A stretch of DNA of 22,400 nt from a virus: the IMG/VR virus record IMGVR_UViG_3300030333_002936, positions 1 to 22,400 of that record; one strand, 5' to 3'. This document shows positions 1 through 5,918 of the stretch, piece by piece. The stretch's first letter is position 1; each line of letters begins with the position of its first letter. The notes beneath the pieces were generated by a model. It worked only from the letters and a program-made list of their open reading frames with translations. It ran no database searches and was not told where the DNA came from. The translations under genes and the position numbers were made by a program.

Positions 1-457
1 TGAAATAATCGCGCAATTCGTCGTCTGTCTGATCGACGTAAACAACGATCATTTCGTTGCCATAACGCTGGGCTAACCGGTCTGCCGCGACTTTTGGCGA
101 CACGGTAATCCAGTCAAATCTAACCTCCCAATTATGGACGCCACTGGTCTGTAGATGACATTTCATCCCCGCGCGTTGTGCGACTTTAATTAACTCACCG
201 ACTTCGTCGGATTGGTCAGCGGGTTCACCGCCTGTAATATGTAGCCAGCCGCTACGCCCGACCGCCGCGATTGCGCGATCTACAATTTCATCGACGGCAC
301 AATCGATGCCATTATGCTTTGACAACGCCTCGCGCTCATCACATTCAGCGCGGATTGGACATGCAACGCTGCACCCCGCAGTGCGGACAAAATATTGCGG
401 CGTACCCAGCAAATGCCCCGTACCCTGAATGCTCGAAAACTCATCATTAACCAGCAT
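1..457 (-). CDS. queE: QueE-like radical SAM enzyme (7-carboxy-7-deazaguanine synthase), 3' end cut by window
   Basis: The visible 152 residues match the N-terminal two thirds of QueE, which converts 6-carboxytetrahydropterin to 7-carboxy-7-deazaguanine in queuosine and 7-deazaguanine DNA pathways. Seen: an opening FSSIQGTG motif (7-14), FVRTAGC (23-29), and a SAM-binding TGGEP (75-79). The cysteines are C29, C33 and C39, giving CX3CX5C where most QueE proteins have CX3CX2C. The residues after the third cysteine (CDE) resemble the CD[ST] of QueE. The ATG at 457 lies inside the end of dpdA (11-bp overlap), so the two are probably translationally coupled. The reading frame is open at base 1, so the C-terminus is missing. 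The family call is strong; activity with the altered cysteine spacing is unproven. Confidence 0.85.
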   Translation of the reverse strand, partial: MLVNDEFSSIQGTGHLLGTPQYFVRTAGCSVACPIRAECDEREALSKHNGIDCAVDEIVDRAIAAVGRSGWLHITGGEPADQSDEVGELIKVAQRAGMKCHLQTSGVHNWEVRFDWITVSPKVAADRLAQRYGNEMIVVYVDQTDDELRDYF

Positions 458-1136
458 TGAGCAACTCCATTTGCGTCGGGCGTGAACTCCAAACAATTGG
501 ATTTTGAATGGCATCGATGCGCCGCGCCATGCGCTCTGGACACACCTTGTCGCGGGCGTGAGATTGCGCGACATTGGTGCTGTCCGCAGACGCAAACGGC
601 CAACGGTCGCCGCACAGCGCGAGGCCGCGTAGCATATGAACCCACGGCAATGCGCCTCGCTTGCTTAAAAAGTTAAACGCTTCGTCGGTTCGACGCTCCC
701 AAGGTTCAGAGCCGACTTGCCAATACGCGCCGCTTGAACCAAAGCAAAGGCGACCAAAGCCAAGATCAAGCAACCGCCCAAGTTGTTCGAGGCTTTCCCC
801 CAAATGCCAAACAACGGCAGCACAATCTCTGCGATGCGGCCATTCTCGCGCTAACGTGAGATTGTCTACCTCTGTGCCGTCAATTTTATCGGGCACAATT
901 GCCCAGTGGGGATGCCCAAGGTAAGGCTCAACAAATTTGTAAAATTTATCCCAATTAGGCACATGCGCTTTCAACGTAAAAAATGTGAAAGCGCCATTGT
1001 CGATGAGAACAGATTGACCGTGCGCGATGCTCCAGTCTAAATCGCGCGGCTCTGCGTAGCTGACGCAAAAATGTTTGCCTGCCATTTTTACCAATTCGCT
1101 GCGCGGCGTTATCGGTGTCCCGTGATAATGGATCAT
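447..1136 (-). CDS. dpdA: DpdA-like DNA 7-deazaguanine transglycosylase (TGT superfamily)
   Basis: A 229-aa protein resembling the phage-type DpdA family, relatives of tRNA-guanine transglycosylase that exchange guanine in DNA for a 7-deazaguanine base. Seen: LIDNGAFTFF (about 44-53), whose Asp46 aligns in style with the first active-site Asp of TGT; HWAIVPDKIDGTEVDN (77-92); AVVWHLGES (107-115); FGSSGAYWQVGS (132-143); and SADSTNVAQSH (183-193) near the end. It is much shorter than bacterial TGT (about 370 aa), as phage DpdA proteins can be, and the usual Zn cysteine cluster is not seen. I chose the ATG at 1136, one base after the upstream stop at 1138; a longer frame to 1292 would overlap a real gene. 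The queE overlap supports a shared pathway. Confidence 0.82.
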   Translation of the reverse strand: MIHYHGTPITPRSELVKMAGKHFCVSYAEPRDLDWSIAHGQSVLIDNGAFTFFTLKAHVPNWDKFYKFVEPYLGHPHWAIVPDKIDGTEVDNLTLAREWPHRRDCAAVVWHLGESLEQLGRLLDLGFGRLCFGSSGAYWQVGSEPWERRTDEAFNFLSKRGALPWVHMLRGLALCGDRWPFASADSTNVAQSHARDKVCPERMARRIDAIQNPIVWSSRPTQMELLNAG

Positions 1137-2791: not shown

Positions 2792-3400
2792 ATGTCTTCA
2801 AAAAATAATATTAGATCACTGCGTAAAGAACGCGGGATATCAGGGAGTGAACTGGCGCGCCGCATCGGCGTCGAAGCCCATACGTTGCGGCGTTGGGAAA
2901 GGGGCGAGGTGCAGCCGCCGCATGAAACGGCGGGGGCAATCGCTTCATTCTTCAACGTGACGCTCGAAGCTGTGTTAGGCATGGAAGAGCGCACTGAAGG
3001 CATGGGCATCGGTCGAACGACGATACCCGTGTTTGGCCGCGCTGAAGGCGGCAGCGGCATCGTCAACTTCGACCAGCCGCCAATCGATCACATTGAAAAG
3101 CCTGGATATCTTGACGCTGTCGATGACTGTTACGCGCTAATGGTCGTCGGCGATTCTATGGAACCGCGCTTTTTTGCTGGCGAAATTTTAATTGTTAATC
3201 CGTTTCGCGCGCCAAGAGCGGGCGACTTCGTCGTCGTACAGTACCGCCGCAACGGCGATATTATGGCGATTGCAAAGCGCTTTGTGCGGCACACCTCGAA
3301 CGCGCTAACCGTCCATGAACTTAATCCAGACCAAGATATCGAAATCGCCGCAACCGACGTTGTCGCCGTTCATTATGTAGCGAGCGTTCGCGCCGTCTGA
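2792..3400 (+). CDS. CI-like repressor: HTH plus S24 (LexA-type) self-cleaving domain
   Basis: A 202-aa two-domain lysogeny repressor. Residues about 5-60 are an XRE helix-turn-helix (SGSELARRIGVEAHTLRRWE). Residues about 78-200 are an S24 serine/lysine autoprotease: the nucleophile Ser122 sits in VVGDSMEPRF and the general base Lys162 in MAIAKRF. A likely self-cleavage region is the VFGRAEGGSG linker (80-89), though the exact bond is not canonical Ala-Gly. Such repressors are inactivated when host RecA senses DNA damage. The ATG at 2792 has AAAAGG about five bases upstream. It diverges from the Cro-like gene across an operator-like region and ends before a strong terminator. Confidence 0.93.
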   Translation: MSSKNNIRSLRKERGISGSELARRIGVEAHTLRRWERGEVQPPHETAGAIASFFNVTLEAVLGMEERTEGMGIGRTTIPVFGRAEGGSGIVNFDQPPIDHIEKPGYLDAVDDCYALMVVGDSMEPRFFAGEILIVNPFRAPRAGDFVVVQYRRNGDIMAIAKRFVRHTSNALTVHELNPDQDIEIAATDVVAVHYVASVRAV

Positions 3401-3525: not shown

Positions 3526-3738
3526 ATGAGTGACCAAATATTTTTTACGCCACCAGAGGCAGCTAAAGAAATCTGGGGCAAATATGGTCACAGGGAGAGA
3601 CACACAATTTATCGCTATCTTCAACATGAGGTGTTTAAACCAATCGAAGAAAAATCAGGGTATAAGATTTTAAAAGACGGCAATCGCTGGTTGATACCCG
3701 GCGGCTTGGTCAAAGCTATTAAGGAGCAAGCCGGATGA
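3526..3738 (+). CDS. Small HTH/excisionase-like DNA-binding protein
   Basis: A 70-aa basic protein. FTPPEAAKEIWG (7-18) with HTIYRYLQ (26-33) resembles a helix-turn-helix of the AlpA/Xis (MerR-like) kind, and GNRWLIPGG (52-60) looks like the wing that follows it in excisionases. Phage excisionases are this small and often lie close to att and int, as this does. It could equally be a transcription regulator. AAGGA at 3511-3515 is a suitable ribosome site. The stop overlaps the next start (ATGA, 3735-3738). The family call is by motif feel and not a strong signature. Confidence 0.72.
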   Translation: MSDQIFFTPPEAAKEIWGKYGHRERHTIYRYLQHEVFKPIEEKSGYKILKDGNRWLIPGGLVKAIKEQAG

Positions 3739-4103
3739 ATGTTTGCCCGACTTGCCATGGTAATGGCTTTCTCAACTCAGACGATGGGCAAGTTGACTGC
3801 CCTACATGCGGCGGCAGCGGAGAAATCCAAGCCCGCCATTCAATCGCGCTGGAAGCAGCGAGCTTGATCTGCGGCGACCGTAGCGAGACGCATGGTCCTG
3901 TCGATCAAAACTTTCAAAACATCGGAGCGCTTTGGGGTTCGTATCTAGGAAAAGAAATTTCCCTTCTCGATGTCGGCAACATGCTGACGCTTCTCAAAAT
4001 TGCGAGGACTAAAACGAACCCAACGCACCGCGACAACTATGTCGACGGTGCGGGTTATCTGGCGCTGACTGGAGAAGTGAACTTAGTCGGAGAGGAGCAA
4101 TGA
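3735..4103 (+). CDS. DnaJ-type zinc finger fused to a DUF6378 domain
   Basis: A 122-aa protein in two parts. Residues 4-30 carry two CxxCxGxG motifs (C4/C7 and C22/C25), the zinc-binding repeat of DnaJ central domains. Residues about 34-115 match DUF6378, a phage domain of unknown function: R49...HG (53-54), LLKIARTK (86-93) and HRDNYVDGAGYLAL (98-111). The pattern of an HG motif, LKIAR and a DN-D-GY helix resembles MazG-like and nucleotide-modification-associated domains, so a nucleotide-related role is possible but inferred. No catalytic activity can be assigned. The start overlaps the previous stop, so translation is probably coupled. Confidence 0.85.
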   Translation: MNVCPTCHGNGFLNSDDGQVDCPTCGGSGEIQARHSIALEAASLICGDRSETHGPVDQNFQNIGALWGSYLGKEISLLDVGNMLTLLKIARTKTNPTHRDNYVDGAGYLALTGEVNLVGEEQ

Positions 4104-4799: not shown

Positions 4800-5918
4800 A
4801 TGCGGAAAAAATCAATCGAAAAGATCAGCGACCAGCGCTACCGGGTGTTTGCGCAAGTCAATGGCAGGCGAAAGTCGCGCATTGTCGAGGGCAGCGAACG
4901 CGCTGCTAGGAAAGAATTAGAACGAATGAGGGTATTGATGAGCGGTGCCGAATATGTTGATCCGGCGACTGCGCCGACTGTGAGAGAGGCGTTCGATGAA
5001 TTTTTGCGAACGCAAGACGAGCGCGTGCAGACTGGCGAAATTGGTCAAGCCGAGTGTGCGAATAAAGAGAGGCACGCGCGGCAGTTCTGCGGCGTGAAGA
5101 TCAACGGCGTCGAAGTTGGGAAAATGAAGACGACTGCAATAAGTTCCGACCTCGTCATTGATGAGATCGTCCCGAAGCTGAAGGCGGGCCGCACAAATCG
5201 CACGGTGCGGAAGCTGGTCGTCAATGTTCAACAGGCGTTTGATTATTTTGCCCGTAAGAAATGGTGCGTCGGCAACGCGGCGTCAGGCGTAAAGATTTCG
5301 ACGGCGGAAGAAGGCAAGCGGCTGCGCCGGATCGCGCCAGCGGAGATGCAGTTCGTTATCAGCCACGCGCCAGATAAATATCGTCTGGCGATTGAGTTTG
5401 CAGCTTACACCGGATTGCGACAGGGGGAGCAGCGCGCCTTGACATGGGACGACATTGATTTTGACGACGGCGTTGTTCATGTGCGCCGCGCTATCAAATC
5501 ACACGCGGGCGTCGGAAAGACAAAAACAGAAGCCGGTGAGCGCTCCATACCTCTAATGGATTTCTTGTTGCAGTCGCTTCGGAAGTGGAAAGTGTCGCAG
5601 CCGCTTGAGCAACGCGCCAACAATCTCGTCTTTCCGAATGAAGTAGGCGAACCAGCAGCCGGTTGGGGCTGGCGCGTGAACGGCATTGGTGCGGCTTGCA
5701 AAGCGGCAGAGGTCGAGCGCATTACTTGGCAAGACCTTCGACATTTCTATGCGTCAGTTCTAATTTTTAATTCAGAGTTTAACGACGCGACAATCACTGA
5801 GTTTCTTGGGCATAGCAGCATCTCATTCAGCAAAAAAGAGTATGCGCGTTGGTTCAAAGATCGGAAGCGTGATGAAAAAATTGCGGCAAAACTTGGCGCT
5901 GCGTTTGGGAGGGGATGA
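4800..5918 (+). CDS. int: Tyrosine recombinase (phage integrase)
   Basis: A 372-aa integrase that should recombine attP with a tRNA-fMet attB. Residues about 1-50 resemble an arm-binding AP2-like N-terminus (DQRYRVFAQVNGRRKS), about 60-160 the SAM-like core-binding domain, and about 178-365 the catalytic domain. Catalytic residues seen: Arg207 (YTGLRQGEQRAL), a probable Lys240 or Lys242 in GKTKTEAGERSIPL, Arg314 in WQDLRHFYAS, His338 in FLGHSS and the nucleophile Tyr348 (KKEYARW). In the HxxR box the usual first His is Gln311 (CAA at 5730-5732). The ATG at 4800 has GAGGA five bases upstream. The last base triplet overlaps the next gene. The family is certain; the effect of Gln311 is unknown. 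Confidence 0.95.
   Translation: MRKKSIEKISDQRYRVFAQVNGRRKSRIVEGSERAARKELERMRVLMSGAEYVDPATAPTVREAFDEFLRTQDERVQTGEIGQAECANKERHARQFCGVKINGVEVGKMKTTAISSDLVIDEIVPKLKAGRTNRTVRKLVVNVQQAFDYFARKKWCVGNAASGVKISTAEEGKRLRRIAPAEMQFVISHAPDKYRLAIEFAAYTGLRQGEQRALTWDDIDFDDGVVHVRRAIKSHAGVGKTKTEAGERSIPLMDFLLQSLRKWKVSQPLEQRANNLVFPNEVGEPAAGWGWRVNGIGAACKAAEVERITWQDLRHFYASVLIFNSEFNDATITEFLGHSSISFSKKEYARWFKDRKRDEKIAAKLGAAFGRG

Follow-up and report, generated by a model that had tools for sequence, protein, structure and literature searches.

How does a phage obtain a modified base for its DNA when it encodes a DNA guanine transglycosylase of the DpdA type and, from the 7-deazaguanine pathway, QueE only? The question is raised by the left end of a 23,269-bp viral contig, of which we analyzed bases 1–22,400 (hereafter, the window), with base 1 being the physical end of the contig. 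The two genes belong to a leftward operon on the minus strand. The operon opens with a Cro/YdaS-like regulator (2423–2614, −), divergent from a CI/LexA-like repressor with an HTH and a peptidase S24 domain (2792–3400, +), and continues through two upstream neighbors of the pair, a small putative PDDEXK nuclease of 112 aa (2095–2433, −; weak PDDEXK_15 match) and a RecB-like PD-(D/E)XK nuclease of 261 aa (1138–1923, −; PHROG 10230, weak PDDEXK_1 match). This layout fits the early operon in which an initial annotation had placed the pair. An integrase gene at 4800–5918 indicates that the phage is probably temperate. Its capsid protein is of the SU10 type and resembles the capsid proteins of Bradyrhizobium and Rhizobium phages, and relatives of its DpdA are present in Agrobacterium, Devosia, and Microvirga genomes; together, these likenesses suggest an alphaproteobacterial host.

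The first gene of the pair, dpdA (447–1136, −), starts with ATG and encodes 229 aa. Its product matched PHROG 887, ‘queuine tRNA-ribosyltransferase’ (E = 3.2e-41), and had no match in Pfam or NCBIfam. PHROG 887 also takes the DpdA of a Nipunavirus, which is encoded close to folE, queD, queC, and queE. Over 176 residues, the window protein is 35% identical to DpdA of Salmonella phage 7-11 (E = 3e-27), in whose DNA traces of dADG were reported (PMC6884629). A profile of 48 short DpdAs aligned collinearly with the profile of phage 9g DpdA (hhalign 95%, E = 3e-8, 148 columns), bringing the D-(N/S)-GAF, histidine, and SxDS motifs into register. Residues D46 (IDNGAF), H111 (VWH), H167 and R170 (HMLRG), and D185 (SADST) are invariant in 38 relatives, and we take D46 and D185 to be the equivalents of the TGT catalytic residues. 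The AlphaFold model is barrel-like (mean pLDDT 82). A single very close match heads the BFVD list, followed mostly by proteins annotated as phage queuine transglycosylases (TM about 0.6); in the PDB the model retrieved weak, generic TIM barrels alone (TM about 0.42), with no TGT among them. Profile comparison gave no link between the short DpdAs and the TGT family, a result that is uninformative because 9g DpdA has no such link either. A different fold for the 229-aa protein, a possibility the initial annotation had allowed for, was considered and rejected: the PDB barrels match weakly, and the BFVD matches are phage transglycosylases. From its homology and motifs, this open reading frame is a short DpdA, with a putative TGT fold.

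The second gene, queE (2–457, −), starts at base 457, overlaps dpdA by 11 nt, and is open to base 2. Its 152-aa product, resembling the radical-SAM 7-carboxy-7-deazaguanine synthase, lacks its C-terminus because the contig ends at base 1. The truncated protein matched PHROG 2076, ‘QueE-like’ (E = 2e-19), the PDB sequences of QueE in a sequence search, and three NCBIfam QueE equivalogs (E about 1e-14), for which the best score of 53.8 bits comes from only 152 residues and lies far below full-length cut-offs of at least 200. A complete orthologue of 211 aa is encoded on a second contig, L004 (8279–8914), and its predicted structure (pLDDT 89) found only QueEs as best PDB matches (4njg with a TM of 0.76, 5th5, and 6nhl); by species, the TM was 0.76 for Burkholderia multivorans, 0.75 for B. 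subtilis, and 0.61 for E. coli. Thus, profile searches with both proteins and the recurrence in L004 bear out the overlapping DpdA-like and QueE-like pair described from the sequence at the outset.

L004, from a sister phage, is an independent contig in which dpdA and queE (76% and 82% identical to those of the window, respectively) have the same order and overlap, so the pair is neither a chance arrangement nor a sequencing artefact. As the DNA left of base 1 is absent from the window record, L004 was used as a stand-in. Its contiguous genes encode a repressor, a regulator, a nuclease, an AAA ATPase, a further replication-type protein, a RecB-like nuclease, a primase/helicase, DpdA, QueE, a DUF6362 protein, a helix-turn-helix protein, and a putative terminase small subunit, all names other than DUF6362 having been read from the translations. 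Searches found QueD, QueC, and FolE nowhere in the L004 record. Similarly, a full preQ0 cluster elsewhere in the window record was rejected, since a search of that whole record found no QueC, QueD, FolE, or transporter. Among the window record, L004, and 46 other short-DpdA records, QueE occurs in three, QueC and QueD in L078 only, and FolE in none. Hence, of the full phage preQ0 pathway (FolE, QueD, QueE, and QueC; group 2 of Hutinet 2019, PMC6884629), the window record and L004, both of them fragments, contain QueE only. The initial annotation had placed the missing precursor genes either beyond the left edge or in the host. The gene content of L004 makes further pathway genes just left of base 1 unlikely, which leaves the host: on this reading it must supply 6-carboxytetrahydropterin, and also QueC if preQ0 is the substrate.

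What usually stands beside a short dpdA was determined from 180 related loci collected by DpdA alone, two of the three DpdA queries having been chosen from loci found through QueE. A gene for a membrane protein of PF02592, to which the queuosine-precursor transporter YhhQ/QPTR belongs and whose E. coli member moves preQ0 and preQ1 (PMC11130926), was found in 131 of the 180 loci; it never lies on the opposite strand from dpdA or more than 600 bases away, and in 107 loci it is adjacent to dpdA or overlaps it. A further 16 loci carry QueE, QueD, or QueC within 3 kb of dpdA in place of the transporter, and no locus carries both. Under independence, the hypergeometric probability of no overlap is 1e-10, and about 2e-5 after dereplication at 70% identity (46 sequences). 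The choice of queries may enrich synthesis genes; it does not explain the mutual exclusion itself. The exclusion extends to whole records, in that QueE, QueD, QueC, and FolE were not found in transporter-bearing records, nor PF02592 in synthesis-bearing ones. A fixed partner rule for dpdA was rejected, as 20 loci with both flanks visible carry no known supply gene of either kind.

The window pair falls within this pattern. In a tree of 75 short DpdAs, the window and L004 group together (support 98) with locus L005 as their sister (94), inside a transporter-bearing clade, and L005 carries the transporter downstream of dpdA. The queE gene starts at the same position within the dpdA 3′ end as the L005 transporter, and a GGAG of the ribosome-binding type lies inside that 3′ end in all three: the bases in front of the ATG are ATGGAGTTGCTCA for window queE (458–470, −), ATGGAGTTGCTTG for L004 queE, and ATGGAGTTATTTGC for the L005 transporter. 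Judged by tree and start site, queE is in the precursor-supply slot usually held by a YhhQ-type transporter, a point that the initial annotation missed, and we read the slot in the window lineage as having switched from import to synthesis.

Short DpdAs are linked to the pathway in other arrangements as well, for instance, queD-queE-queC-dpdA in L078, queE-dpdA-queD in L116, and queD-dpdA in Caulobacter phage DMCA. In the latter (L091, 5705–6726), the gene for a miniature QueD of 98 aa, a PTPS match with a borderline Pfam score, overlaps that for a short DpdA whose only annotation is ‘hypothetical protein’. A family of about 80 aa without significant Pfam match, with the pattern CP....Y.VTI.T...VEDI...H.GV, is encoded, for instance, at L224:2453–2692, L249:6675–6914, L076:4814–5062, and L270:2710–2952. 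It sits directly beside dpdA in 16 loci without a known supply gene, occurs also in 27 transporter loci, and is possibly a further DpdA partner.

Cultured phages show the same association. All four that carry an L005-type transporter have it in one cluster with DpdA: it directly adjoins dpdA in RHph_N3_2 and phiLM21, and is separated from it by one small gene in Pam5 and by two in RHph_X2_30. The DpdA of Sinorhizobium phage phiLM21, whose gene overlaps that of the YhhQ-type transporter (L286, 2123–3474), belongs to PHROG 1279; dpdA and the transporter are thus paired outside PHROG 887 as well. A fifth entry, labelled a fecal bacteriophage (L287, MT837598), has a transporter, no DpdA, and bacterial-looking neighboring frames, because of which it was excluded from the isolate count; its DNA is probably not from a phage. 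Among prophages, three genome matches were found, along with one among 397 genomes from the order to which Agrobacterium pusense belongs; all have the transporter and none has queE. In the A. pusense with a dpdA-transporter prophage, the chromosome gave a QueE-like match, and a TGT is present as well. Even an importer thus need not make up for a pathway that the host lacks, and the idea that the transporter serves a pathway-less host is weakened. Hutinet 2019 described YhhQ as without correlation to any phage group (PMC6884629); within the short-DpdA clade, by contrast, the correlation is strong.

The reading that we favor, at a probability of about 70%, is that a temperate phage whose host is probably an alphaproteobacterium has a minimal 7-deazaguanine DNA-modification module fed by its own QueE together with host QueD and QueC, in a slot that switched from import to synthesis. 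DpdA would replace guanine in the phage genome with a 7-deazaguanine base, and the modified DNA would be protected from host restriction. QueE, translationally coupled to dpdA, would raise precursor supply by converting host-made 6-carboxytetrahydropterin (CPH4, the QueD product) into 7-carboxy-7-deazaguanine (CDG), which host QueC would turn into preQ0 for DpdA; in related phages, the YhhQ-type transporter in the same slot would import a ready-made precursor. The scheme would rely on host QueD, and probably on QueC, both of which we assume to be present in the host. The family assignments support the modification module proposed in the initial annotation, and modification itself is what we infer from them. 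Three observations speak against this explanation: the departures of QueE at E15, T40, and in its cysteine spacing; the weak PDB matches; and the partner-less loci, which indicate that a partner is not obligatory.

The main rival is direct insertion of CDG. The module would then be self-sufficient from CDG onward, QueE making it and DpdA inserting it, and the DNA would carry dCDG (2′-deoxy-7-carboxy-7-deazaguanosine) instead of preQ0. Some phage DNAs reportedly contain dCDG, according to a 2023 paper. QueC is missing from the window record and L004, as this scheme would have it, and dpdA is accompanied by queE and queD, with no queC detected, in L131, L149, L107, and L116. Along the same lines, Hutinet 2019 raised CDG insertion for Mycobacterium phage Bipper, in which queC is missing and the pathway stops at CDG in the phage genome, as in the window, although Bipper also has FolE and QueD (PMC6884629), which the window and L004 do not. 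However, the sister clade has YhhQ-type transporters, and the E. coli member of that family moves preQ0 and preQ1 (PMC11130926), which makes CDG improbable as the ancestral substrate. Moreover, relatives with QueD alone make nothing that can be inserted and must use host QueE and QueC; single enzymes would thus boost the flux towards preQ0 and not themselves make the final base. On balance, we consider CDG insertion unlikely.

The active site of QueE bears on a second alternative. In an alignment with 22 other QueEs, a subgroup formed by the window, L004, and L100 has QGTG for QGEG, CX3-4CX5C-DE in place of CX3CX2C-DT, and LQTSG in place of ETNG. The three cysteines of window QueE are present, spaced CX3CX5C. 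L100 is a contig in which queC and queE overlap at the contig end (7453–8594; motif CX4CX5C-DE), with no DpdA within the visible stretch. In E. coli numbering, all three proteins have E15 changed to T and T40 changed to E, a reciprocal exchange; in the E. coli enzyme, E15 contacts the substrate and T40 binds Mg (PMC11142719). Of the substrate and Mg residues of E. coli QueE, Q and R are kept while E15 and T40 are changed, and the subgroup retains the Q13, R27, GGEP, SPK, and C-terminal QxHK positions. Loss of R27 abolishes queuosine formation by E. coli QueE (PMC11142719). Because the E15 and T40 positions are changed, we file the window protein as QueE-like rather than as a confirmed QueE.

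One might therefore suppose a changed enzyme, in which the E/T swap and the new cysteine spacing, common to the three proteins and missing in the 22 others, go with another substrate or product, perhaps a novel 7-deazaguanine that DpdA would use. We regard this as improbable. In L100, an intact queC lies directly in front of queE, a coupling that ties the altered-motif subgroup to the preQ0 pathway and fits ordinary preQ0 synthesis, and the retained positions listed above point the same way. The distance between the second and third cysteines varies widely among phage QueEs, with CX3CX6C and CX3CX7C also found, which weakens CX3CX5C as the mark of a new enzyme. Finally, T40A in E. coli QueE has little effect on the end product and still supports Q formation (PMC11142719), so inactivity of the altered QueE cannot be deduced from this position.

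A bolder statement is that the slot is swappable, with a YhhQ importer, QueE, QueD, or QueD-QueE-QueC as alternative occupants that replace one another on the spot and never occur together, and that the window lineage has installed a remodelled QueE with swapped substrate/Mg residues, its DNA bearing CDG or some other base so far unseen in temperate alphaproteobacterial phages. As a whole, we offer it tentatively and think it rather unlikely.

A tRNA role is slightly less probable even than a changed enzyme. QueE would be an auxiliary metabolic gene boosting host tRNA queuosine, with DpdA acting on tRNA or being unrelated. DpdA is a paralogue of TGT, and other phages carry preQ0 genes without DpdA (PMC6884629). 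Yet two contigs show a tight overlap of queE with dpdA, the 180 loci show a slot specific to dpdA, and the dpdA of 9g does not replace tgt (Hutinet 2019). That the pair is a decaying remnant without function, as the missing pathway genes, the truncation at the contig end, and the unusual QueE motif might hint, is barely credible given intact overlapping frames conserved in two independent contigs, invariant catalytic-type DpdA residues, and a QueE motif change common to three contigs.

DpdA and QueE were already known, alone or in full clusters. Phages of the 9g, CAjan, and Nipunavirus type (Queuovirinae) have a DpdA with homologous core motifs linked to queE, but carry folE, queD, queE, and queC (or gat-queC), whereas the window has queE only and a DpdA about 90 residues shorter. 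The ‘DpdA only’ phages (group 3 of Hutinet 2019, e.g., Salmonella 7-11; also the lambdoid SfI and BTP1) share the short PHROG 887 DpdA and the reliance on host precursors that we propose, but have no annotated supply gene next to dpdA. The dpdA-YhhQ phages (Rhizobium phage RHph_N3_2, Pseudanabaena phage Pam5, Sinorhizobium phage phiLM21, and the 131 viral loci) have the operon position and translational coupling of the window pair; their partner is the PF02592 transporter, that of the window a synthase, with L005 as the closest transporter-bearing DpdA relative. Three features are new here: dpdA and queE as a two-gene unit in the short-DpdA clade, a single slot in which transporter and synthase replace each other, and a QueE with an altered active-site pattern. 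The literature searched contained no description of such an exchange, several key papers and reviews of the field lying outside that search.

Phages with DpdA fall most often into the class that lacks a precursor pathway of its own. Within one large DpdA clade, dpdA is almost always partnered by a transporter, which can give way to one biosynthetic enzyme but never accompanies it; this points to precursor supply as the limiting step and predicts that the transporter or synthase would set the modification level.

Beside the lysogeny region, the window also encodes a protein whose N-terminal part has CxxC and resembles a zinc ribbon and whose C-terminal domain is DUF6378 (3735–4103, +).
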